A DNA stretch of 64,000 nucleotides, from assembly GCA_018857735.1 (NCBI GenBank), contig JABMCL010003147.1, forward strand, positions 454,001-518,000. Reading direction: 5' to 3'. The stretch is from Alviniconcha marisindica (Eukaryota > Mollusca > Gastropoda > Provannidae). How positions within the stretch are numbered: the first letter of the stretch is position 1; every line of letters starts with the position of its first letter. The notes under the pieces were generated by a model that had not been told where the DNA came from, ran no database searches, and was given only the letters and a program-made list of their open reading frames with translations. Positions 3,501 through 49,026 of this stretch are shown here, in pieces. The position numbers and the translations under genes were made by a program.

Positions 3501-6500
3501 GTTATGAATTAGACTACAAGAGGCCACCACACTGATTTGGGGGGGGGGGGGGGGGTATTAACCATGCCAGGAGGTGAACATACATTCACCTCCAATCCAG
3601 CATTGTAACATTTCATCCATGCCTTTTTGGTAGTTGCATTGTTACATAATGCTGAATTATGGCTAGTGGAGAGGATAGCTTCTAAAATGTCAGAAGGAAT
3701 ACCTGCTTGAGTGGCCAGGTTCTGGTGAGGGGAAGTCAAGGTGGTTGTGATTTTCATACATTCAGTCTTCTGTTGTAAGCTGCCTTTGTTGCTTGAAAGT
3801 TAATGAACAGAGAATGAATAGAAAGGAAGACCATCTACTAAGTGGGGAGATTGAGAAGGAAAGTGAGGCCTGACCGATGTGTGTAGCAATGATGCTGATA
3901 GTTTGAATGATGGCAACTGCAGCAGAGCACATGGTGACATACTCTTACTTTTGACAGTTTGGTGCGAGGTCTGGTGTTGGACCATGGTGCTCGCCACCCT
4001 GACATGAAGAAGCACGTCAAGGATGCTTTCATCTTGACCTGCAATGTGTCCCTTGAGTATGAGAAAACGTGAGTATATGTCTACACACTTTTTAGTGCTG
4101 CAACATTTGCATTGCCAGATCAGGTTCAGGAAAGTTGCATCTGTTCCGGGTGCATTTCTTGGCTTTAGATGGTTGTTTGAAGTACTTTGCTGTAGAGGAT
4201 GAAGACATTTTTATGCAATATGCTTCATCTTCTTTTCCTTTTTTTTTTTCTTTTTTTTTTTTAACCCTTTAAAAGAAAAAAGTCATTAAGCAAGAACAGG
4301 CAGCTTTATGAATGAAGATGACAGCTACTGTCTGGTGCAAGAAGAAAAAAAGTTGGACAAGACTTGTAACCATGAGTAAAACTTGCGTGCTGAAGCACAA
4401 TATTCAAATTTTAGAAGCATTGATTAATTATATTATCTGAAGTTGCTTCTAACTGTTCGCAGAGTGATGTCATCTGATCATGCCAGGTAAGACATCCCTT
4501 TTGTTTCTTGCAGAGAGGTCAACTCGGGATTCTTCTACAAGAGTGCATCAGAGAGGGAAAAGTTGGTGGAAGCTGAGCGGGCCTTTATTGATGACCGTGT
4601 TCACAAGATCATCGAGCTGAAGAAGAAGGTCTGTGCGGGGAATGATCGTGGCTTTGTGGTCATTAACCAGAAGGGAGTGGACCCTTTTTCACTGGACATG
4701 CTGGCCAAGGAGGGCATTGTGGCACTCCGCCGGGCCAAGAGGCGCAACATGGAGAGGTGGGTCATCTGCTCTCTCTTGTCTTAATGTCAGTTGTTTTGCA
4801 CAGGCGGGGCTGAGAATGCCACCATTTTCCTGGTGAAAACCTTTTAGGCTGTTCTTGGGTATCCTTTGTAGATCTGATTGACTCTAAAATGTTGCTTGAA
4901 ATATCCTTGCTTTGTGAGACAGATTTTTTATATTATTGTTTTTATTGTGAAATGTTAGAAATTGTGGAATGACAAAGTAGGAGTGTGTGTCAAATAATCA
5001 GCAACAGAGATGTTGAGGACTCCTTGGTGCTACCTGGGAAACAAGACTTTAAGGAGACAGAGTAACACAGGTGTACGTGTATTTTCAACTGGGGGTAGTG
5101 GGTGGGGGGGACTTGCAATAAAGCTTTATCTTCCGACTTGCAGCAGTTAAACACAGAACATTCACTTGCTAGACTCTGAATTGCAACGCACCAGAAAAGT
5201 GTTGAAATGTGCTGTTTGTTATTTTCCAGACTGTCCCTGGCTTGTGGCGGAATGGCTGTCAACTCTGTGGATGACATGATGCCTGACTGTCTTGGAGAAG
5301 CTGGCCTGGTCTTTGAGAGTGTGCTGGTCAGTACAGCCAGAAACTGGATGACTGCATGCATACGCACCATAGTTTTCACCATTGGCAGCACTACACTGAA
5401 GTCAGTTCTTGGATTCATTTAATGTCCTGTCAACTGCATAGGGTCACCTCAGGACAAGATGCCACACTGAAGAAGATCAGACAACAATACATTATAAGTA
5501 GTGAAGTTGGGGAGGGGGCGTGTATATTAGAATCACAGTGTTTATCTGTGTCTGTGTCCTTCCAGATTTTGTCTGTACGATATTTTTTTAACTGTTCAGC
5601 TACTGCTCTTCCTTTATGGATAGTTGCATGACTTTCCGCTTGCAAGCAAAGGAGTGTCACCGTTTGTAACTGTTGCACTTGCTTAACTGGTTTGAAATGA
5701 AGTTACTATATATATTGGTTAGAGAGAACATGGGGGTGGGGGTGTGCACAAGAGAAGAGATGCACATTATGTTTGATTTAATGTTTCAGGGGGAGAACAA
5801 GTACACTTTTGTGGAGGAGTGCAAGAACCCTCGATCTGTCACCATCCTGATCAAGGGACCGAACAACCATACCATCATTCAGATCAAGGATGCCATCCGT
5901 GATGGCCTGCGGGCTGTCAAAAATGCGATCGAAGATGGTAAGATACAAGGAGGCCATTTCACTCATTCACTTGAGAAAGCACAAACTATGGGTACTTGGT
6001 GAGTGCTCTTCTGTCCAGTTAAACCCTGAAGATTAATGAGAGGAACTTTGCAGTGGCAATTTTAGGTTAATGATAGTCTAAGATACAGCTTGGGGGGGGG
6101 GGGGGGGCTGTCATAGGATTATAACTTTTAACCGGCTGTGTCTCATCTTATTCCAAAATAGTGTAGTGAATCTTGAGTGGAATGGATACCAAAATAAGAA
6201 TCAGCACAGGAGGTTGACCCTGGAGAAGAAAATTCTCCTGCCAAGTGCCAGGACTTCCACTGCCTTTCAATCATGAGTCTGGTGCTGTACCCCAGAGCTC
6301 TCCCTGCTCTCCCAGTGTGTATAGTGCAAACAACAGAGCTGGACAGGTGTATGTTTGATTAGACCTACAGGCAGCTGCCAAGACCTGTAAAGGTCTCTTT
6401 GAAAAGTATACTTGATGTTAATTATTTGAGTTCTGTAATCACTTTAATGTTATGTGAGAGAAAATAAGTCAGAAGCATGGAAGTTTACCTTTTATTCTGT

Positions 6501-25842: not shown

Positions 25843-28800
25843 CCGCATCTGTCTGCCTATGACAGTTGAAGAGGTGAGACTTTTATTTATTTAAGTGAGC
25901 TGTGAAAGTGAGTGTTAGCATTTTGTTTAGAACTCAGTAGCAACAAGTTATAGACTGAGTCACTGAATGTGATCATGGAGTCTTGTTTTACAGTGTTTTT
26001 TCTTTCTTTCTTTTATTCTGCTTGCTAGAATGCGTCTTGATACTGAAGCCTTTTTCTGCCAAAGTATCTCCAGTGTTGCTGCAACTTGTGTCCAATAAAC
26101 TGAATTATACTAACGGTTCTGAGGAGAGGTCACCCTAACCTACCAGAAACACCAGTTTTGACTGCTTTGTTGCAGTTTACTTTTTGAGCATACACAAAGA
26201 GTAGGATTTCAAGCATGACATCATGTGACATCCTTTAGTCAGACTGGAAGAGATTTGCCAAGTAACTAACTTGCTGTTTTAAGCCCAGTCAACCATTATG
26301 GTTATATCAGGGCAAAAGAAATTTGCCAAAGACCTCACATTATCATGATGTCTTAATAAGCAAGGGCAGGGAAAGGGTTAATGTTAAGAAATGTCACATC
26401 ATTTGAAATAACAGCCCCAGTGTATTGTTCTTCTTCTGCATTTGAGCACCAAGTTAGTTACTTACATCTGCGGTTGAGCATGTTTCTGCCTCAAATGGTC
26501 ACTCTGGTGGTTTGGATGAAGGTTGTGGTCTTCAAAAGGTCCTCCTCCATCTTGTTCTTGCAGTGTTGCTCAACAGAGCCACTGCTAGAACTGTAGAACA
26601 TGCTCTGGGGACTGAGGTCCTGTTTGGCAGGGGCAGTCTACAGTACATGCTGGCCCATGTGCATTAATAAATATCATTAGTGACAGTGCCCATGATGATG
26701 TGTAACAACACAGATGGCCTTAACACATAAATGGTTAAAAAGAATGCCAGTTTAATTAAATTAATATGAGGGTACAAAAAGTGCAAATTTTCAGGGTAAG
26801 CCCCATTTTTTTTATAGTAACAAAACAACAGTATGATGATCAATGGAAATGTACCTATCTGGTTGGGGGGGGGGGGGGGGGGGGGGATTGAATCTCAGGA
26901 ATAAAACTAGGCATTCAGCACACACCCCAACCATAACTGGATAAGTACATTTTCATTTGTCACAGTTTAACTCTTGTTTAACTATTATTTTGTCACTTTG
27001 AAAAAGGGGCTTCCCCCCAAAATTAGCACACATTTTGTACTGTCATACTAGTGTTCTTTTCAAGCATTTAGGTATAATTTGAATCTTGTTTTAGAACGCT
27101 AGCAGTCATCCTTGTTTCAGATTTTTTTGTTGGGGGGGTCTAGCTCAGACTTGTGACATTGTTCTTGCAGTACCATGTAGCACAGCTGTGGTCTGTGGCG
27201 GAAGCCAGTAAGAATGAGACTGGGGGAGGCGAAGGACTGGAGGTCCTGATCAACGAGCCCTTTTCTCCAGACACCCCAGAGTACGCTCCCCGGGAACCGC
27301 TCATTGCTGGGGGAAAGGAGTACACGGAAGGGCAGTTTACAAAGAAAATCTATCACCTGCAGAGGTTGGTACTGGTAGAGTTGTTTTGCTCAAATGGTAA
27401 AGTTGTTTTGCTCAAATGGTAGAGTTGTTTTGCTCAAATGATAGAGTTGTTTTGCTCAAATGGTAGAGTTGTTTTGCTCAAATGGTAAAGTTGTTTTGCT
27501 CAAACCTGTCAGTTTGAAGGAAGTGTGATTGATTTAGAGTAATCAGTCAAATAGCCTTGTGATGATTTCTCTGTCTGATTGTAATTAACCTTCAGAACTC
27601 TCTTCTTACTTTAGATAGGCTTCACTGTTTAGTTTGATAATTCAGCCACTGATTATATGATTTTCTTCTTGCTCACAACCAAGGAAAGTTATTGGGAACA
27701 AAATGGTATAAAAAATGAGTGAAGTTGACAGATTTATGGTCAACAAGTGTTTGATGATTATGATTATATAAAAACGCACAAATTGTGTCTTATAAGTTAT
27801 ATGGTATTTGGTAGTACACACATTATTCAGATTGATTAAGTGACAAAGTCAGAGACAAAATATACATAAAGTCTAAAATAAAACTAGGTTACTACTCTGC
27901 TACTGTACTAGTAGTATGATGTGAAGATGGCAGTTACAAATGTAGTATTTTTTATCTTTTTTGTTTCCAGCAAAGTTCCTGGCTTTATACAAGCGCTAGC
28001 GCCAAAAGGATCCCTAGAAATTCTGGAAGAGGCCTGGAATGCTTACCCATACTGTAGGACTGTGATCACAGTGAGTACCCACCCTGTAGAATGGTTAAAA
28101 AGTGTTACCACATCAAGTACCCATACTGTAGAGCTGTTATCACAGCAAGTACCCATATTGTAGGACCGTTATCACAGCAAGTACCCATATTGTAGAACCG
28201 TTATCACAGCAAGTACCCATACTGTAGAACTGTTATCACAATGAGTACCCATACTGTAGAACTGTTATCACAGCAAGTACCCATACTGTAGAACCATTAT
28301 CCCAGTGAGTACCCATACTGTAGAATTGTCACAGTGAGTACCCATACTGTAGAACTGTCATCACAGCAAGTACCCATACTGTAAAACTGTCATCACAGCA
28401 AGTACCCATACTGTAGAACTGTTATCACAGCAAGTACCCATACTGTAGAACTGTCATCACAGCAAGTACCCATACTGTAGAACTGTCATCACAGCAAGTA
28501 CCCATACTGTAGAACTGTCATCACAGCAAGTACCCATACTGTAGAACTGTCATCACAGCGAGTGCCCATACAGTAGAACTGTTAGTACAGCAAGTACCCA
28601 TATTGCAGAGCTGTTTTCACAGAGAGTACTCATACTGTAGATCTGTTATTACAACAAATACCCATACTGTAGAACTGTTACCACAGTGAATACCCCATCC
28701 TGTAGAACTGTTACCACAGTGAGTACCCATACTGTAGAACTGTTACCACAGTGAATACCCCATCCTGTAGAACTGTTACCACAGTGAGTACCCATCCTGT

Positions 28801-31800
28801 AGATGATGATGGTTATTACAGCAAATACCCATCCTGTAGAACTGTTACCACAGTGAGTACCCCTTCTGTAGAACTTTAAAACTGTGAGTACCCCTCATGT
28901 AGAACTGCTACAACAGCGAGTACCCCTTCTGTAGAACTGTTATCACAGTGAGTGAGTACCCATCCTGTAGATCTGTTATAACAGCAAATACCCATCCTGT
29001 AGAACTGTTACCACAGCAAGAACCCCTTCTGTAGAACTGTTACCACAGTGAGTACCTCTGTAAACTGTTACCCCAGCGAGATCCTTCTGTAGATCTGTTA
29101 TAACAGCAAATACCCATCCTGTAGAACTGTTACCACAGCAAGAACCCCTTCTGTGGAACTGTTACCACAGTGAGTACCCATCCTGTAAAACTGTTACCAC
29201 AGCGAGTACCCTTTCTGTAGAACTTTGAAACAGTGAGTACCCCATCTGTAGAACTGTTACCACAGCGAGAACCCCTTTTGTAGAACTGTTACCACAGCGA
29301 GAACCCCTTCTGTAGAACTGTTACCACAGCGAGTACCCCTCCTGTAGAACTGTTGCCTCAGAGAGTACCCCTTCTGTCGAACTTTGAAACAGTGAGTACC
29401 CCTTCTGTAGAACTGTTACCACAGTGAGTACCCCTTCTGTAGGACTGTTACCACAGTGAGTACCCCTTCCCGTAGAACTGTTGACCCAGGAGTACCCCTT
29501 CTGTAGAACTTTGAAACAGTGAGTACCCCTTCTGTAGAACTGTTACCACAGCGAGAACCCCTTCTGTAGAACTGTTACCACAGCGAGTACCCCTTCTGTA
29601 GAACTGTTACACAGCGAGTACCCCTTCTGTAGAACTGTTACCACAGCGAGTACCCCTTCTGTAGAACTGTTACCACAGCGAGAACCCCTTCTGTAGAACT
29701 GTTACCACAGCGAGTACCCCTTCTGTAGAACTGTTACCACAGCGAGTACCCCTTCTGTAGAACTTTGAAACAGTGAGTACCCCTTCTGTAGAACTGTTAC
29801 CACAGCGAGAACCCCTTCTGTAGAACTGTTGCCACAGTGAGTACCCCTTCTGTAGAACTTTGAAACAGTGAGTATCCCTCCTATAGAACTGATGGAGTTG
29901 ACAAGAGCGCTGAAGGATTGTATATGTTGCATGATTCTAGATTTACAAGATCATCAGTATGTATTATTGATTGTGACTGTGGCATTTATTTGTAGGGAAA
30001 TAAAAAACTTAAGAACTCTGCTAAATACTTGCTGTTGGTGTTTTATCACTGTTTGAGTGACATAATTCAAACATTGCAACATAATAATAATAATAATAAT
30101 CTGTATTGACTTGGTTTCTGTTTGTACCAGTTTTGGTGACCATGACCTATTTTCAAGGTTAGTCTGGAGATGAAACAGAGCTTTACGTTCAGTTTTTGAA
30201 TATGTTGCCTGAGCATCTGTGCATCTTGCTATGCTCTAAAAAGAAAATACCTCCTTCTCCCTCCTTCTCCATCTCTCTGTCTCTGTCTCATGGCTCCATT
30301 ATGATGTTGCTGATCACATTTCACAAAGCTGACATGTATAGTGATTGTTTCAGAATCCTGGCTACATGAAAGAAAACTTCTACATTATTATCGAGTCTTT
30401 CCATGCACCGGACAGAGGAGGACAGGAGAATGTGCATCAGCTGTCGAGCGAGGAGCTGGCTCAGAGAGAAGTGCACCACATTGACATCGCTAACAATGCA
30501 GTAGTTTCTAGAAATGTGAGTTGGCTTTTTAAAATGGGAGTGCAACTGCTGAAACAGAAGGGGAGGGGGGAAGAAAGGAGATCAGGGCAACTATGTAAAT
30601 AAACAAACTCCACCCCCACCCCTTCTCTAGATAAAGGCAAAAACAAAAAGCAAACAATAAACAGGCAAAAAGATAACAGCATCAAAAACCTGACCACCAA
30701 CCGAGGTGAAACATGGAGCAGAAAACAAATCAGCAGCACAAAACTTTGCTAAAAAATTCACTTTTTTTATGGACAGTTGACATCAGGTGAAAGGGGAATG
30801 GAAGTGGGAGATGCATGTTTGGTTGGAAAATATAGAAAATGTGCAAATTGAATCAAACACATTCACACACACACACACCCGCTGTATAACTTTATATTTC
30901 ATTACAGTGGTAATAGTAAGAATTGTGTATACATAAATGACACCAAAAGACACCCTGCTGTAAAAAGAAAAAAGAGAAAAAAGTCCAAATATTTTCATCT
31001 GTAGGATTCATTTTCAACACCTACTGAAAGGTTGTGAAAATTGACGAGCCATTTTCGCAGATCACAGATAATTAAGTTTGTAACTGGGTTTATTGACTGA
31101 AGTCAGAAAAAGTGCTGTAAGTTAAGAGTAACTGTGTCATTTTACTTGACAGGATTACAGACCTGAGTGGGATCCCACTTTGTTCAAGTCAGAAAAGAGC
31201 GGACGAGGCCCTTTACCCAAGGACGGTGCTGTTGAAGGGAGTCAAGGACTGTGGTCGGTTAGTAGCTAGCCCTTATAAGTTGTTTTTTGATTTTGATTTT
31301 AATTTAACCTAATAAATTAATTGCTTTAGCAGAATTGCTGAAAAGTTTGCTAGCAATGAGCACATGTATGCATATTTGTGCGTGTGTGTGTGTGTGTGTG
31401 TGCTTATGTGTGTTGGCATGTATTTTATGGTGTGTGTGTGTGTGAATGTGCACATGTGTATGGTGAGATATATTTTATACGAGGGTAGTGGAATATGCTT
31501 GAAATGTGTGTGATGAAACAGATTATTTATGAGGGTAGTAAAAGATTATTTATGAGGGTAGTAAAATATGCATGCAATGTGTGTGATGAGATGGGGGTAT
31601 TTATGAGGTTGGTAGAATGATTATGAGGGTGGTAGAATATGTACACTGTCACTTTTTTTTTAGCTTTTCTTTTTTTACATCCAGCTGTTGCCTTAAAGTA
31701 AAAGTCCAAGGTTTTTAAGTGTGCAAAATGACCATTGAAATGATTGACAAATGAGTCACTAGTTTCAGATTTAATGAAATATTTTGTTTTTGTTTTTGTT

Positions 31801-33140
31801 TAATTGGGTTTTTAATCAATTTTATTTTCTGTAGACTTTCCCGGAAGTGACGTCAGTCTGGAGAGTCAGTGCGGTTGCCATCTTAGATTCTTCAGTAAAC
31901 TGTGTATGCGTGTGGTCGACAAAAAAGTTAACTATGCCGGCCTACTGTGTTGCTGCGAACTGTAACAATTCGCAGATGACGCCAGGTATAACAATGCACG
32001 AGCTCCCATGCAATCACCCGCAGTGAGGTGAAAGTGGATTAAATTTATACAATTCAAACGAGCTGACTTTCTTGCTGCGCCGCAGCACGCCCATTTGTGT
32101 AGCGAGCACTTCAGTGAGTGAGATTTCGCAAACTCCATGGAATACCGCATGGGGTTTGCTGACACGATGTTCCGGTACTCTTTCAAAACCTGCCCGACAG
32201 GCTCAAACTAATACGGCTGTATCCTTGTGGGTCTCTCGGGCAAAGTATCAGTTTCGTCTTCAGAGCTTGAGTTGGCCATTTTGCAGCGACTCCCCAGAGT
32301 GACGTAGTAGGCATATGGTCACGTGATTTGGGCGTCATGGCGACGCTTTCTGTATGACAGAAAATACATTTTTTCGTGCATTTATAACCCTCAGATCACA
32401 GTTTCACCTACATCATTGTTCTCAGCGAGCTTTAACGGAAATCGTGTCAAAAATCACCCCTAACCTTGGACTTTAATGCTCTAGAACTGTCCCTGTGCAC
32501 ATATGGAAACTTTTATGTAGTCTATTTATGGGGAAAAGGAGACAGGAAATTGGAGCATGTACAAGATACAGACAATAACTGAAAGATAAAGCTGAGCTGA
32601 CGTTTCGGAGGCACCTGCTGTGGGAAAGTCTGGAACATAATAGCTTTTGTTATGTTGTTGTGTTTTTTTTTTATGTTCCTCAGAATGACGGTAATGGTAC
32701 ACTCTTTTGAATTACGTGCACATTGTGACGTAATTTTTTGCATTGTTACAGAAAACTCACGAACCAGTGATGTGTTGCTACAAGTTAGTGCGTGTTCTCT
32801 TCAAATGGTGGGGACTTCAGAACAGAATAGAAAAATTCACAATGAAGGTAGGCTTTTGTGGGCTTTTTCTGTTGAAAAATTCACAATGAAGGTAGGCTTT
32901 TGTGGGCTTTTTCTGTTGAAAAATTCACAATGAAGGTAGGCTTTTGTGGGCTTTTTCTGTTGAGAGACTGCTGACCCCCCTTTCTGCCGCTTTGGACTAC
33001 ATCTCGTTTGTTTGGTAGACAAGGTTAATGTGTTTGGTAGACATGTTTAATGTGTTTGGTAGACATGTTTAACGCTGAATTGTATCTGGAGAGGCCCTGG
33101 TGGGGACTGAGATCCTAGAAGGTGTGTTGTTGGTGGGACT

Positions 33141-33175
<35 letters not shown>

Positions 33176-35928
33176 TACTGAAATGAGTCAGCACAGAAGG
33201 TTGACCCTGGAGAAGAAAATTCTCCTGCCGCTCCTGCAGGGACTTGAACCTGAGACCTGATCACGTGTCTGACGCTCTAACCACTGAGCTATCTGGCTCC
33301 CCAATGCAGCTAGGGGCAGTGCAACCAATATAATGCATGTTGGAGTTTTTCATTCATGCTACACTTCACCACCAGAATTATACCGCATCGAGATGGGCAG
33401 CAGTAAGAGCCTTTTTAGTGTTTCACTAATTGTGAGGGGCAAAGTCACAGGATGGCATCTGCAAACTACGACATTTGAAGAGACGGAAGAGCCAAAGCAA
33501 GGAATCAAACCGACACCATTCACTTACCAGCCTAGCACCGTACCACTAGGCCAAACTGGCTCGTGTATGAAAAATGTAACTGGATATCAGTTGCAAACAC
33601 TTTGCTTTATGGTGCATTTTTTGGATTAGTGTGAAGAAAAAAAGACCGAGTTTTGTTGTGATGATAGCTAGTCCAGGCAGCCAGTCATCTCTGGCAAGCC
33701 TCTATTCTTAAAGTTAAAAAAAGAAAACAAATTATTAAGTTTTTTTGGTGTTTTTTAGAAGGAGCTTATTCATACCCATTTATGGTGACACTCAAAATGC
33801 TTCCTGAAGCTGTGTTACGAGCTTGACCTGTTTATAGCATTTCCTGTTTTGATGATCTTGGTGACAGAGATGTTGGCAAGAACAACAGAATTTAAAAAGA
33901 AAAGAAGAGGGTATCCTCCAGACAGTTTTGATCCTGTTGGCCTCAGTTTGATATGATTGATTTGACATTGACAGGATCATCCCCATAGTGCTTTAATATG
34001 TCACAACACTTCAAGGGAGATTATCAAATGATTTTTGGAACGTTTATAGTTTACACTGATGTTTTTCCTGACTGAGATCTTGCAAAGTTTAATTGACAGT
34101 AGCCTCTTTTGAGCCTTAGCCATTCATCTGTGAAAGCAGAACTTGATCCACATGATTCTTTTTATTACATTCTAAAGCTTATATTCGTAATCTAAAATTC
34201 AGATTAGTGCTTCCATCATCAGGATGTTTGTATGACTTTTTGTGTTTGTGGTGTTTGTGTCATATAATCATTGCTAGGGTGTCATCTGCCTCTGTGTTTG
34301 TATGACTTTTTGTGTTTGTGGTGTTTGTGTCATATAATCATTGCTAGGGTGTCATCTGCCTCTGTGTTTGTATGACTTTTTGTGTTTGTGGTGTTTGTGT
34401 CATATAATCATTGCTAGGGTGTCATCTGCCTCTGTGTTTGTATGACTTTTTGTGTTTGTGGTGTTTGTGTCATATAATCATTGCTAGGGTGTCATCTGCC
34501 TCTGTGTTTGTATGACTTTTTGTGTTTGTGTCATATAATCATTGCTAGGGTGTCATCTGCCTCTGTGTTTGTATGACTTTTTGTGTTTGTGGTGTTTGTG
34601 TCATATAATCATTGCTAGGGTGTCATCTGCCTCTGTGTTTGTATGACTTTTTGTGTTTGTGTCATATAATCATTGCTAGGGTGTCATCTGCCTCTGTGTT
34701 TGTATGACTTTTTGTGTTTGTGGTGTTTGTGTCATATAATCATTGCTAGGGTGTCATCTGCCTCTGTGTTTGTATGACTTTTTTGTGTTTGTGTCATATA
34801 ATCATTGCTAGGGTGTCATCTGCCTCTGTGTTTGTATGACTTTTTGTGTTTGTGTGTTTGTGCATATATCATTGCTAGGGTGTCATCTGCCTCTGTGTTT
34901 GTATGACTTTTTGTGTTTGTGGTGTTTGTGTCATATAATCATTGCTAGGGTGTCATCTGCCTCTGTGTTTGCGCTGAAAATGTGCACATGTTCTTCATTG
35001 TCCAATTAAAACAGCATTTTTTTTTAACCTCTGGTGGGTTTTGATCTTGTGCAACAGTGATGGAACTTTTCGATGCTTGGTTTTCAGCAAGAAAAGCGAC
35101 TGTTCACCAACTTCCATAGACAAGTGTTTTGCTGGATGGACAAGTGGTACGGCCTGACTATGGACGACATCCGCAGGATTGAGGAAGAGACTAAGCACGA
35201 GTTGGACCAGGTGATTTTGAGTTTTTTGTTGTCTTTTCTTTTGATAACACCTAGACTGTCCTGTATGAGCCAATTTGTGTCTTGTCTAACCAGGTATGTA
35301 GCATTAGCTGTTTGGAAAGAGGAAAGAGAAACAGCAGAGTGTGAAAATGTTTCTGAAGCTGCGGGCCATTGCTGCTTTTTTACTGCTCGAGTTTTGAGAT
35401 TTTCTGGTTTTATTTCATTCACTAGCATGACAAATCATGCAAGTGGTGATCAGCGCTGGTCTGTCCAACCCTAGTTAAATCCAGACCTTGTACTTTTGAC
35501 ATCCACTGTCACAGTACTGCCTTTCAAACTTGCTTGACAAGAAGCTCCACTGAACTTACCCATTCATTCCAATTTTAGTGGCTGTGACTCTCCCCTCCAC
35601 ACACACACACTCACACACAGAGACACACACATTTTTATTGGACTACGTCAGTGGTACCTCAGTGGGCAGATCAGTTTTTTTCTAGGTGAAATGGTACTGC
35701 ATGTCTGTTCATAGATTTGAGGGAGGTACATCACTGAGGTACATCTCCTGCTGATGTATTCATATTTTTCAGCTTTGAATGCAAAGTGACTGTTGCCCCT
35801 TCATATTATTTCCTATATTTTGAATGCTAAAAAGGAGATGAATCTTTTTCTCACTTCTGCTTTTGTCGCAATTGTTTCAGCAACGCAAGCAAGGCACTGT
35901 GCGGGGGACGAAAGCCAGCGAGGATTAA
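25843..35928 (+). CDS. Phosphatidylinositol transfer protein, class I (PITPNA/B, vibrator type), first exon not found
   Basis: This is a soluble START-like lipid carrier that exchanges phosphatidylinositol and phosphatidylcholine between membranes. Exons: 25843-25873, 27171-27364, 27971-28070, 30354-30515, 31153-31257, 32752-32847, 35088-35210, 35881-35928. All are GT-AG and in phase, giving about 285 codons. Landmarks are [101 protein letters not shown] and a short basic C-terminus ending KASED. The KWWGLQ motif and the short tail mark class I, not PITPNC1/RdgB. The segment after LEVLINEPF is about 20 residues longer than in human PITPs. The first exon (usually MVLIKEF/Y) was not located upstream. 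Introns are rich in minisatellites, two of them built from exon-donor junctions. A, B or a single ancestral orthologue cannot be told apart here. Confidence 0.93.
27376..27500 (+). repeat. 22-23 bp tandem repeat in a PITP intron
   Basis: Six copies of GAGTTGTTTTGCTCAAATGG-type units begin about ten bases after the donor of exon 27171-27364. The unit does not include exon sequence. Confidence 0.9.
28040..29890 (+). repeat. 32-bp minisatellite derived from a PITP exon 3' end plus its splice donor
   Basis: The unit reads TACCCATACTGTAGAACTG followed by TTATCACAGTGAG. The first occurrence is the real end of the PITP exon at 27971-28070 (TACCCATACTGTAGGACTG then TGATCACA) plus the first intron bases GTGAG. 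About 55-60 units follow, drifting from CCCATACTG to CCCCTTCTG. The donor position varies between GTGAGT, GCAAGT and GCGAG. No other gene lies in this intron. Confidence 0.95.
31701..32475. mobile_element. Degenerate DNA transposon with AAAGTCCAAGGTT inverted ends
   Basis: The left end AAAGTCCAAGGTT (31701) and the right end AACCTTGGACTTT (to 32475) are inverted copies about 775 bases apart, inside a PITP intron. The interior carries a THAP-domain relic, so the element probably belongs to a THAP-bearing class (P element or a similar DNA transposon). The target duplication is not clear. Confidence 0.6.
31934..32211 (+). pseudogene. THAP zinc-finger relic (frameshifted)
   Basis: The ATG frame starts [13 protein letters not shown], which gives the first Cys pair (C-x4-C) of a THAP domain. 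It stops at a TGA after HPQ. The other frame continues [14 protein letters not shown] and then HLCSEHFSE, the C-x2-H half of the C2CH zinc site. Further stops follow the CSEHFSE motif and in the KW region. At least one frameshift and two stops mean it is dead. THAP domains are DNA-binding modules shared by transposases and host regulators. Confidence 0.7.
32830..32961 (+). repeat. Triplicated 44-bp exon/donor junction in PITP
   Basis: Three near-identical 44-bp units start at 32830, 32874 and 32918. Each carries GAAAAATTCACAATGAAG (the last 18 bases of the exon 32752-32847) followed by GTAGGC and the start of the intron. The first unit is the functional junction, because continuing past it meets an in-frame TGA inside the second unit. 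Confidence 0.95.
33164..33302 (-). mobile_element. Family-B SINE, 5' part
   Basis: The reverse strand has a head with TAGCTCAGTGGTTAGAGCG, a B box in GGTCTCAGGTTCAAGTCCC and the AGAATTTTCTTCTCCAGGG body. A 36-base poly-G tract follows on its 3' side. Confidence 0.75.
33350..33568 (-). mobile_element. Diverged family-A SINE in PITP intron
   Basis: The body signature GAGATGGGCAGCAGTAAGAG and the reverse-strand head ending CACTAGGCCAAACTGGCTCG match the other copies. Confidence 0.75.
34224..34974 (+). repeat. 70-bp minisatellite upstream of a PITP exon
   Basis: About 11 highly similar units contain GTATGACTTTTTGTGTTTGT, GTCATATAATCATTGCTAGG and GTCATCTGCCTCTGT. Some units lack a 10-12 base GGTGTTTGTG piece. 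The array ends about 110 bases before the acceptor of exon 35088-35210. Confidence 0.95.
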
Positions 35929-47500: not shown

Positions 47501-49026
47501 TTTAAATATAAACTGCCAAAACTGCTTGAAAGATGACCCATTTTCTATTATATGGTACATATAATACATTCTAAACCGGAAACAGTTTAAAACTCGACCT
47601 CTGAAGTCATTCCTACTGTAACAGTAAATTTGGCATGGAGTTTTAAATATAACTTGTTTTAGATGCACCCAGTGAAAGTCCTGAGCTTGAAAGATGACCC
47701 ATTTTCTACCTGATCATATAGTACATTCTAAACCACAGTTTTAGAACTCAACCTTTGCCCTCTATCAGTGAAGTCACCCACAATAGGTGGTGGCTGCTAG
47801 TTGATGTGGTACATTCAGTCTCTTGACATTTTTGCACCAGAATTCCACATGGCTGTATTTTGCTGTTGTTTTTACGCTGACCCATGTAATGTGTAGTGCT
47901 CAGCAAAGTAATCTAAACGATGATTGTGGCTACTGTATAATTTATGTGGATGGAGAAGATTCAACAAAAACTTGCCTCAGAATCCTGCAGGCCGCCTTCA
48001 CCATGGGTACTGATGGGAAGTTGGCTTCTACGTGTATCTCATTCTCATCGCTGTCATCAACAGTCTTCCTTCCCGATTCCGTCGTGGAGGCTTCCAAGCT
48101 GTTTCGTTTCTCAGCTTCCACATACTGTATCTCGAGAACCTTCACTAGTGCTGGGAGAGCCTGGGCTTGAGCAATGGCCAGGTGAGAGGATGACTCCATG
48201 GCAAGGTTGCCCAGTGATCGACAGCAGCGGAGCTGAACCTCTTTGTCATTGCAGTTTGTTAACAAGGTCACTGAAATTAGTGAAAAGAGACGGTGATAAA
48301 CTGGGTAGTGAAGCAACATGACTGAGGAAAACAGGTGATGTGACGATCATGACTGAGGAAAGCAGATGAAGTAACATGACTGAGGAAAACAGGTGAAGTT
48401 GTCATGACTGAAGGAGGCAGGTGACGTGACAATCACGACTGAGGAAAACAGGCGATGTGACAATCATGACTGAGGAAAGCAGATGAAGTAACATGACTGA
48501 AGAAAACAGGTGAAGTTGACATGACTGAGGTGACGTGACAATCATGACTGAAAGAGTGAAGAAAGCAGGTGGAGTGACATGACTGAAGAAAGCGGGTGAA
48601 GTGACATGACTGAGGAAAGCAGGTGAAATGACATGAGTGAGGAAAGCTGGTGACATGACATGACTCAGGAAAGCAGGTGCAATGTCATGACCAAGGACAT
48701 TCAGACAAAAAGCCTCTTTGGGGAAACCAGCAGGGAGTAGTCTCCTCTTGAGGATGACAACATGCTGTTCACCAAGCAAACTGACAGTTACATATCACAA
48801 GTTCATTCATTATCTAAACTAAATACATCAATGTGTCCAATTTCTTGCATCGGCACATGACATCCTACTATTAGAAGCACTTTGCTGTCTGGGGGAAAAA
48901 CAGTGAAACCCAAGATGCTTTACCATCTGGTACAAACTTGGCCTTCCATTGTACTAGGCCACAGTCACACACACACACACACACACACGCACACACACAC
49001 ACACACACATGATCACACACACATGA

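Follow-up and report, generated by a model that had tools for sequence, protein, structure and literature searches.

A 32-bp minisatellite built from an exon edge and its splice donor in a phosphatidylinositol transfer protein gene of Alviniconcha marisindica

Splice sites repeated in tandem are known from the major internal repeat of Epstein-Barr virus, in which each unit holds splice sites, the units being long and carrying whole exons. The human IFI6 minisatellite is said, in work attributed to Turri et al. from 1995 (NAR 23:1854), to yield multiple splice donors. Here we analyse a minisatellite of 32-bp units in a gene for a class I phosphatidylinositol transfer protein (PITP) of the gastropod Alviniconcha marisindica. 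The gene lies on the + strand of a 64,000-nucleotide stretch of DNA (the window), which is part of a 904,659-base contig (C177) in a genome of 817.6 Mb, and its array resembles the viral repeat in presenting splice sites in tandem.

According to PMC4526556, two downstream repeat units of human IFI6 are used as donors and three mRNAs result. IFI6 and the PITP array are alike in that tandem repeat units offer splice donors within one transcript. As in an IFI6-type splice-donor minisatellite, the PITP repeat unit contains the exon end together with the 5' splice site, and several downstream copies (the 17 intronic rows with GTGAGT) keep the donor consensus. Unlike in IFI6, an extension of the PITP exon into the array would run into an in-frame stop ahead of every intact GT donor, and donor use is here predicted from the DNA. 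IFI6 is a precedent for the PITP array. Minisatellites at exon-intron boundaries also alter human genes in segmental duplications, and the PITP array stands at such a boundary too; in PMC2812944, the units are about 30 bp on average and 27 intron modifications were retained after manual inspection. Those cases differ in having an average of 4 repeats, in having been chosen by copy-number variation between paralogues and in that transcripts support their new introns. Gain of introns through tandem duplication (PMC4974935) likewise involves duplication across an exon-intron boundary. It was rejected for the PITP array, as the acceptor before 30354 lies outside the repeats and AGGT has 0 occurrences in 28071-29900; on the same count, a recursive splicing array of AG/GT zero-length-exon sites was discarded. 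A known structured RNA was not recognised either, 27900-30400 giving 0 Rfam matches at gathering score. Searches with partial literature coverage and few queries specific to molluscs or gastropods turned up, by title or abstract opening, no account of minisatellites at splice junctions of a mollusc. The PITP array is real, was correctly described in the initial annotation and is a large example of a known phenomenon.

Joining six exons of the gene gave an open protein of 260 residues (the first and last exons of the gene fall outside this set), which matched Pfam IP_trans at 333.6 bits and both PITP-alpha and PITP-beta chains in PDB. Its best named relative, 80% identical, belongs to Batillaria attramentaria, a caenogastropod. 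A wrap-around parse of the repeat found behind one of these exons resolved 58 rows that begin at 28044 and end at about 29892. The first is the copy within the exon itself; a degenerate first intronic copy of 42 bases, 55 more rows and a partial last row follow. This agrees with the initial annotation, which had proposed a 32-bp unit made of the last 27 exon bases and five intron bases and present in roughly 58 copies. Tandem Repeats Finder (TRF) placed 56.1 copies of period 32 at 28103-29891 with 84% matches, and reported an additional higher-order period of 381 bp.

The coding part of the unit spells YPYCRTVIT, a peptide seen in both of the PITP-alpha chain alignments printed from PDB, and YPYCRT is retained in 17 of the 19 aligned relatives that were picked from 120 listed. 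Because the coding end of the exon is conserved in relatives, the array stems from the exon rather than the exon from the array, and the proposed origin from a PITP exon is borne out. Copies near the exon are closer to the exon sequence than distal ones (Spearman −0.58 for rows 3-57, n = 55, adjacent copies not being independent of one another). Outside the array but within the window, the best + strand match to the 27 bases of the exon end reached 17/27. A whole-genome DNA search with 27900-28300 as query gave 12 matches, namely the query and 11 inside the PITP array, and none outside exon and array, which falls short of proof of uniqueness because this search skips very common words.

We then tallied the donor position row by row. 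It reads GTGAGT in 18 of the 58 rows, the authentic donor among them, so that 17 intronic rows carry the canonical hexamer (19 occurrences when an overlapping pair in one row counts twice); the roughly 18 canonical donors claimed at the outset are thus right once the real one is counted. The other hexamers are GCAAGT (11 rows), GCGAGT (9), GCGAGA (5) and various others (15), with irregular rows 32 and 45 read one base off and neither being GTGAGT by the parse. Many GC-type copies had also been claimed, and GCAAGT in 11 rows and 15 occurrences of GCGAG in the array confirm them; ACAGTGAGT occurs 16 times. Over the 58 rows the +2/+3 bases are TG in 21, CA in 18, CG in 14, TA in 0 and something else in 5. 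As CG is a CpG, decaying to TG or CA, GC-type copies could in principle revert to GT donors. Predicted pairing with U1 is −2.3 kcal/mol for GCAAGT and −5.2 kcal/mol for GTGAGT, and the GC copies keep the A at −1.

The array, with GTGAGT in 18 rows of its 1.83 kb, exceeds the remaining 62,170 bases of the + strand, where the hexamer occurs 14 times, by a factor of about 44 in density, and a chance origin of this excess is excluded. By a coarse score of pairing with the U1 5' end, sites of −5 kcal/mol or better number 9.8 per kb in the array, 6.6 per kb in the other scored introns of the PITP gene and 6.0 per kb in the window. The notion of a spliceosome confronted with dozens of rival 5' splice sites therefore survives in part: many canonical donors are kept, but the density of U1-pairing sites is only 1.6 times that of the window, which makes the problem less unusual than first described.

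Read on past a skipped authentic donor, the exon frame runs into a TAG at 28161, which lies before each of the 17 intronic rows with GTGAGT; the nearest intact competitor, at 28305, lies 234 bases past the real donor, and one GC-type copy (donor at 28145) precedes the stop. Broken messages from downstream donors, which had been predicted on the grounds that the unit length is not a multiple of three and that stops occur, are indeed expected, but the stop stands before every intact GT donor and unit length is therefore irrelevant. Since the intact GT donors lie behind it, their stray use should feed nonsense-mediated decay.

Similar arrays were found at other exon edges. Within the same gene, a second junction array repeats a 44-bp unit of 18 coding bases and 26 intron bases, donor included; its donors at 32848, 32892 and 32936 are strong and identical (U1 score −9.2), and a stop at 32887-32889 precedes the second. 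On contig C918, locus L038 holds the first exon (MLIKEYRIPLPLSVEEYRIAQLYMIQ; Pfam IP_trans) of a gene that we read as PITPNM-like, followed by an 89-bp unit, made up of the donor, 30 coding bases and further sequence, in at least 17 copies (17.3 up to the end of the fetched locus). Fifteen of these copies, the exon's own among them, carry ATACAG/GTCAGT, and again a stop precedes the second donor. A PITP-domain paralogue match on C918 spans the position homologous to the 32-bp array in one piece (query 66-138), so the paralogue is without the array-bearing intron. A polo-kinase-like exon (L050; best PDB matches PLK1) is followed by an 83-bp unit holding exon end and donor, with five AAAGATGTGAG in the fetched stretch, the exon's own included, and there the exon frame stops at the junction itself. 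All four donor arrays thus have an in-frame stop ahead of the next intact GT donor, and in the 44-bp, 89-bp and 83-bp arrays the copy that adjoins the real donor retains an intact one. Acceptors are caught as well: locus L046 has nine TCTCTTCAGA, counting that of the exon, with exon-like sequence after them, L065 a 96-base duplication of the acceptor and exon start, and kinase exon L074 a weaker acceptor-junction repeat at 19/24. At another PITP paralogue match, L034, an array lies about 40 bases upstream of a likely acceptor.

The frequency of such arrays was estimated from kinase exons. From 144 Pkinase matches, sixty without an internal stop and with an open frame no longer than 250 codons were drawn in order of E-value (three that satisfied this rule were left out, namely C1153, which had the same scores as another match, and, by oversight, C773 and C2001), and 40 of the 60 were read, with flanks of 350 bases for 20 and 180 bases for 20. 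One 24-base window per junction was scored as positive when it had a tandem partner of at least 20/24 within 230 bases. An initial scoring of the first 20 loci, at 21/24 and with loose placement, had flagged a single donor side along with five on the acceptor side, of which one was a plain TA repeat. Donor-side partners were found at 1/40 kinase exons, 2/7 PITP exons of the window and 1/7 paralogue matches, or 4/54 donor junctions overall; among the paralogues, L034 and L040 have uncertain donors, and L039 was excluded as its 24/24 arises only within a GT microsatellite. Acceptor-side partners remained, after reading, at 2/40 kinase exons (L046 at 21 and L065 at 23) and at 0/7 PITP exons of the window; L053 drops to 15 at its true acceptor, and L077 scores 20 at a doubtful one. 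Because only 33/40 kinase donors and 32/40 acceptors could be placed with a fair score within 30 bases of the match, the kinase rates are rough.

Random 24-mers have a forward partner at 12.6% of 37,067 positions in 264 kb (the window and loci L009-L028) and at 8.0% in the window, the positions not being mutually independent. In the same 264 kb, 176 arrays with a period of at least 10, none overlapping another, make up 16.8% of the sequence. Beside the first 20 kinase exons, partners were found for 44/470 24-mers downstream and 140/582 upstream, and inside those exons for 0/1,256. With 4/54 set against a background of 8.0-12.6%, an exceptional enrichment of donors among arrays was dropped. Junction arrays are common in this genome and not over-represented in this small sample; we regard them as the expected residue of very frequent tandem duplication next to a coding side that is held constant.

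We favour, with a probability of roughly three in four, the reading that the PITP array is a minisatellite by-product of an exon edge that is tolerated, with the exon-proximal donor used and without a required function. A short tandem duplication would have started at the 3' edge of the class I PITP exon, copying 27 bases of coding sequence together with the five that open the intron, and would then have expanded into the intron as a minisatellite. The exon side would be held fixed because it encodes a conserved peptide, and the intron side would be free to grow. Splicing would take the exon-proximal donor and mostly ignore the 17 intronic GTGAGT rows, because their use would lengthen the exon by at least 234 bases; stray messages from array donors would carry the stop at 28161 and be removed by nonsense-mediated decay, and the array itself would serve no required function. 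In a repeat-rich genome with the same pattern at other genes, the array looks like a tolerated accident, and tolerance because the first donor wins appears to be the best fit among the options raised at the outset. Since three of the four donor arrays keep most donors intact beside the real one, sequence decay is not what protects splicing there, and position is the likely protecting factor.

Several points weigh on the other side. Use of the first donor is something we infer. The reported use of downstream IFI6 units as donors makes some use of array donors plausible, and rows 2-7, those nearest the exon, are all without GT, a possible hint of selection against close competitors. The rate of 2/7 within the gene exceeds the background, but it was in this very gene that the array came to notice. 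Finally, the comparison with background is rough, as junction windows include 16 constrained exon bases and flanks were 180 bases at 20/40 loci.

Among the alternatives, the least improbable, although we consider it unlikely, is that the array serves as a splicing buffer, U1 binding to many copies and thereby increasing both its local amount and the splicing of this intron, or lowers PITP output by diverting a set fraction of messages to nonsense-mediated decay. The 44-fold density of GTGAGT, the placement of the 17 intronic rows behind a stop, as a decay switch requires, and the donor use reported for IFI6 repeat units in PMC4526556 would fit such a role. GTGAGT is nevertheless kept in only 17 of the 57 intronic rows, U1-pairing sites reach only 1.6 times the window density, and the similar arrays at other genes leave no special link to PITP regulation. 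With junction arrays recurring at or below the general tandem-repeat density, the suggestion of a special splicing buffer or regulator was not supported.

Slightly less probable still is that selection has purged rival donors, GT being lost near the exon and intact donors left where they are harmless. The absence of GT from rows 2-7, which puts the first intact competitor 234 bases off, would follow from it, as would the weaker U1 pairing of the GC copies; a GT-free lead as long arises, however, in 8/56 circular shifts and in 7.1% of free shuffles, and the +2 column is the fifth lowest of 32 and no outlier. The intact donors in the adjacent copy of the 44-bp, 89-bp and 83-bp arrays also argue against purging. 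Selection against competing donors was rejected as unsupported by column conservation and circular shifts.

A protective role of U1 against premature polyadenylation is described in PMC5499120. Telescripting of this kind, with array-bound U1 blocking premature polyadenylation in the PITP intron, is very improbable: U1-pairing sites are dense immediately past the exon, but their excess over background is small by the U1 score and no finding connects premature polyadenylation with the intron in question. Assemblies are prone to error in tandem arrays, but an artefact, of the whole array or of its copy number, is the least credible explanation, since the copies have diverged (84% matches) inside a 904,659-base contig, and they fall into ordered subtypes between non-repeated flanks.

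The features are collected in Table 1. The 22-bp array listed there repeats a donor-like G/GTAGAG or GTAAAG near the donor GTTGGT, and the exon edge is not in its unit. Elsewhere in the window, an array at 48316-48691 adjoins an ARMC5-like exon on the minus strand (Pfam ARM_ARMC5); in the minus-strand reading, several of its units resemble 3' splice sites (TTTTCCTCAG) upstream of the exon. A TCP1/cpn60 chaperonin exon (Pfam PF00118) lies at 5670-5999.

Table 1. Coordinates of PITP exons, junction arrays and related features (positions in the window unless a locus is given; a slash marks the exon-intron junction)
Feature	Position	Strand	Remarks
PITP short upstream exon	ends near 25873	+	
PITP upstream exon	27171..27364	+	donor GAG/GTTGGT
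22-bp array, six copies	27373..27504	+	after 8 intron bases behind exon 27171-27364
PITP exon, source of the unit	27971..28070	+	1 base + 33 codons; from splice signals and frame
Founding unit	28044..28075	+	27 exonic bases (28044-28070) + GTGAG
Authentic 5' splice site ACA/GTGAGT	28071..28076	+	U1 pairing −5.2 kcal/mol
First intronic copy, degenerate, 42 bases	28076..28117	+	donor lost (TCAAGT)
Minisatellite array, rows 3-58	28118..29892	+	17 rows with GTGAGT
First in-frame stop (TAG) if authentic donor is skipped	28161..28163	+	
PITP next exon after the array	30354..30515	+	preceded by acceptor TTTCAG
PITP exon	31153..31257	+	
PITP exon ending EKFTMK/GTAGGC	32752..32847	+	
Second PITP junction array	32830..32961	+	44-bp unit, three identical copies
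PITP exon	35088..35210	+	donor CAG/GTGATT
Junction array of locus L038	1549-3078 of locus L038 (contig C918)	reverse	first exon of PITP-domain paralogue

What merits further attention is the broader pattern, in which several genes of a single genome carry identical splice sites in tandem. We hold it possible, at a little under even odds, that minisatellites in this snail lineage routinely take in exon edges, on the donor as well as the acceptor side, perhaps at a few per cent of junctions, and that the spliceosome resolves them by position and not by sequence. If so, near-identical splice sites would stand in tandem in thousands of introns, and the arrays would amount to a natural experiment on a large scale and would supply polymorphism in splicing. 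Constructed minigenes are the usual means of testing how the choice falls among identical 5' splice sites; the three copies of the 44-bp unit, the 89-bp array with 15 exact donors and the graded decay over 58 rows in the PITP array offer a natural test of tandem donor choice. Should junction arrays prove as frequent as in the small sample, the copy number of splice sites may be a genuine source of variation in genomes of this kind.

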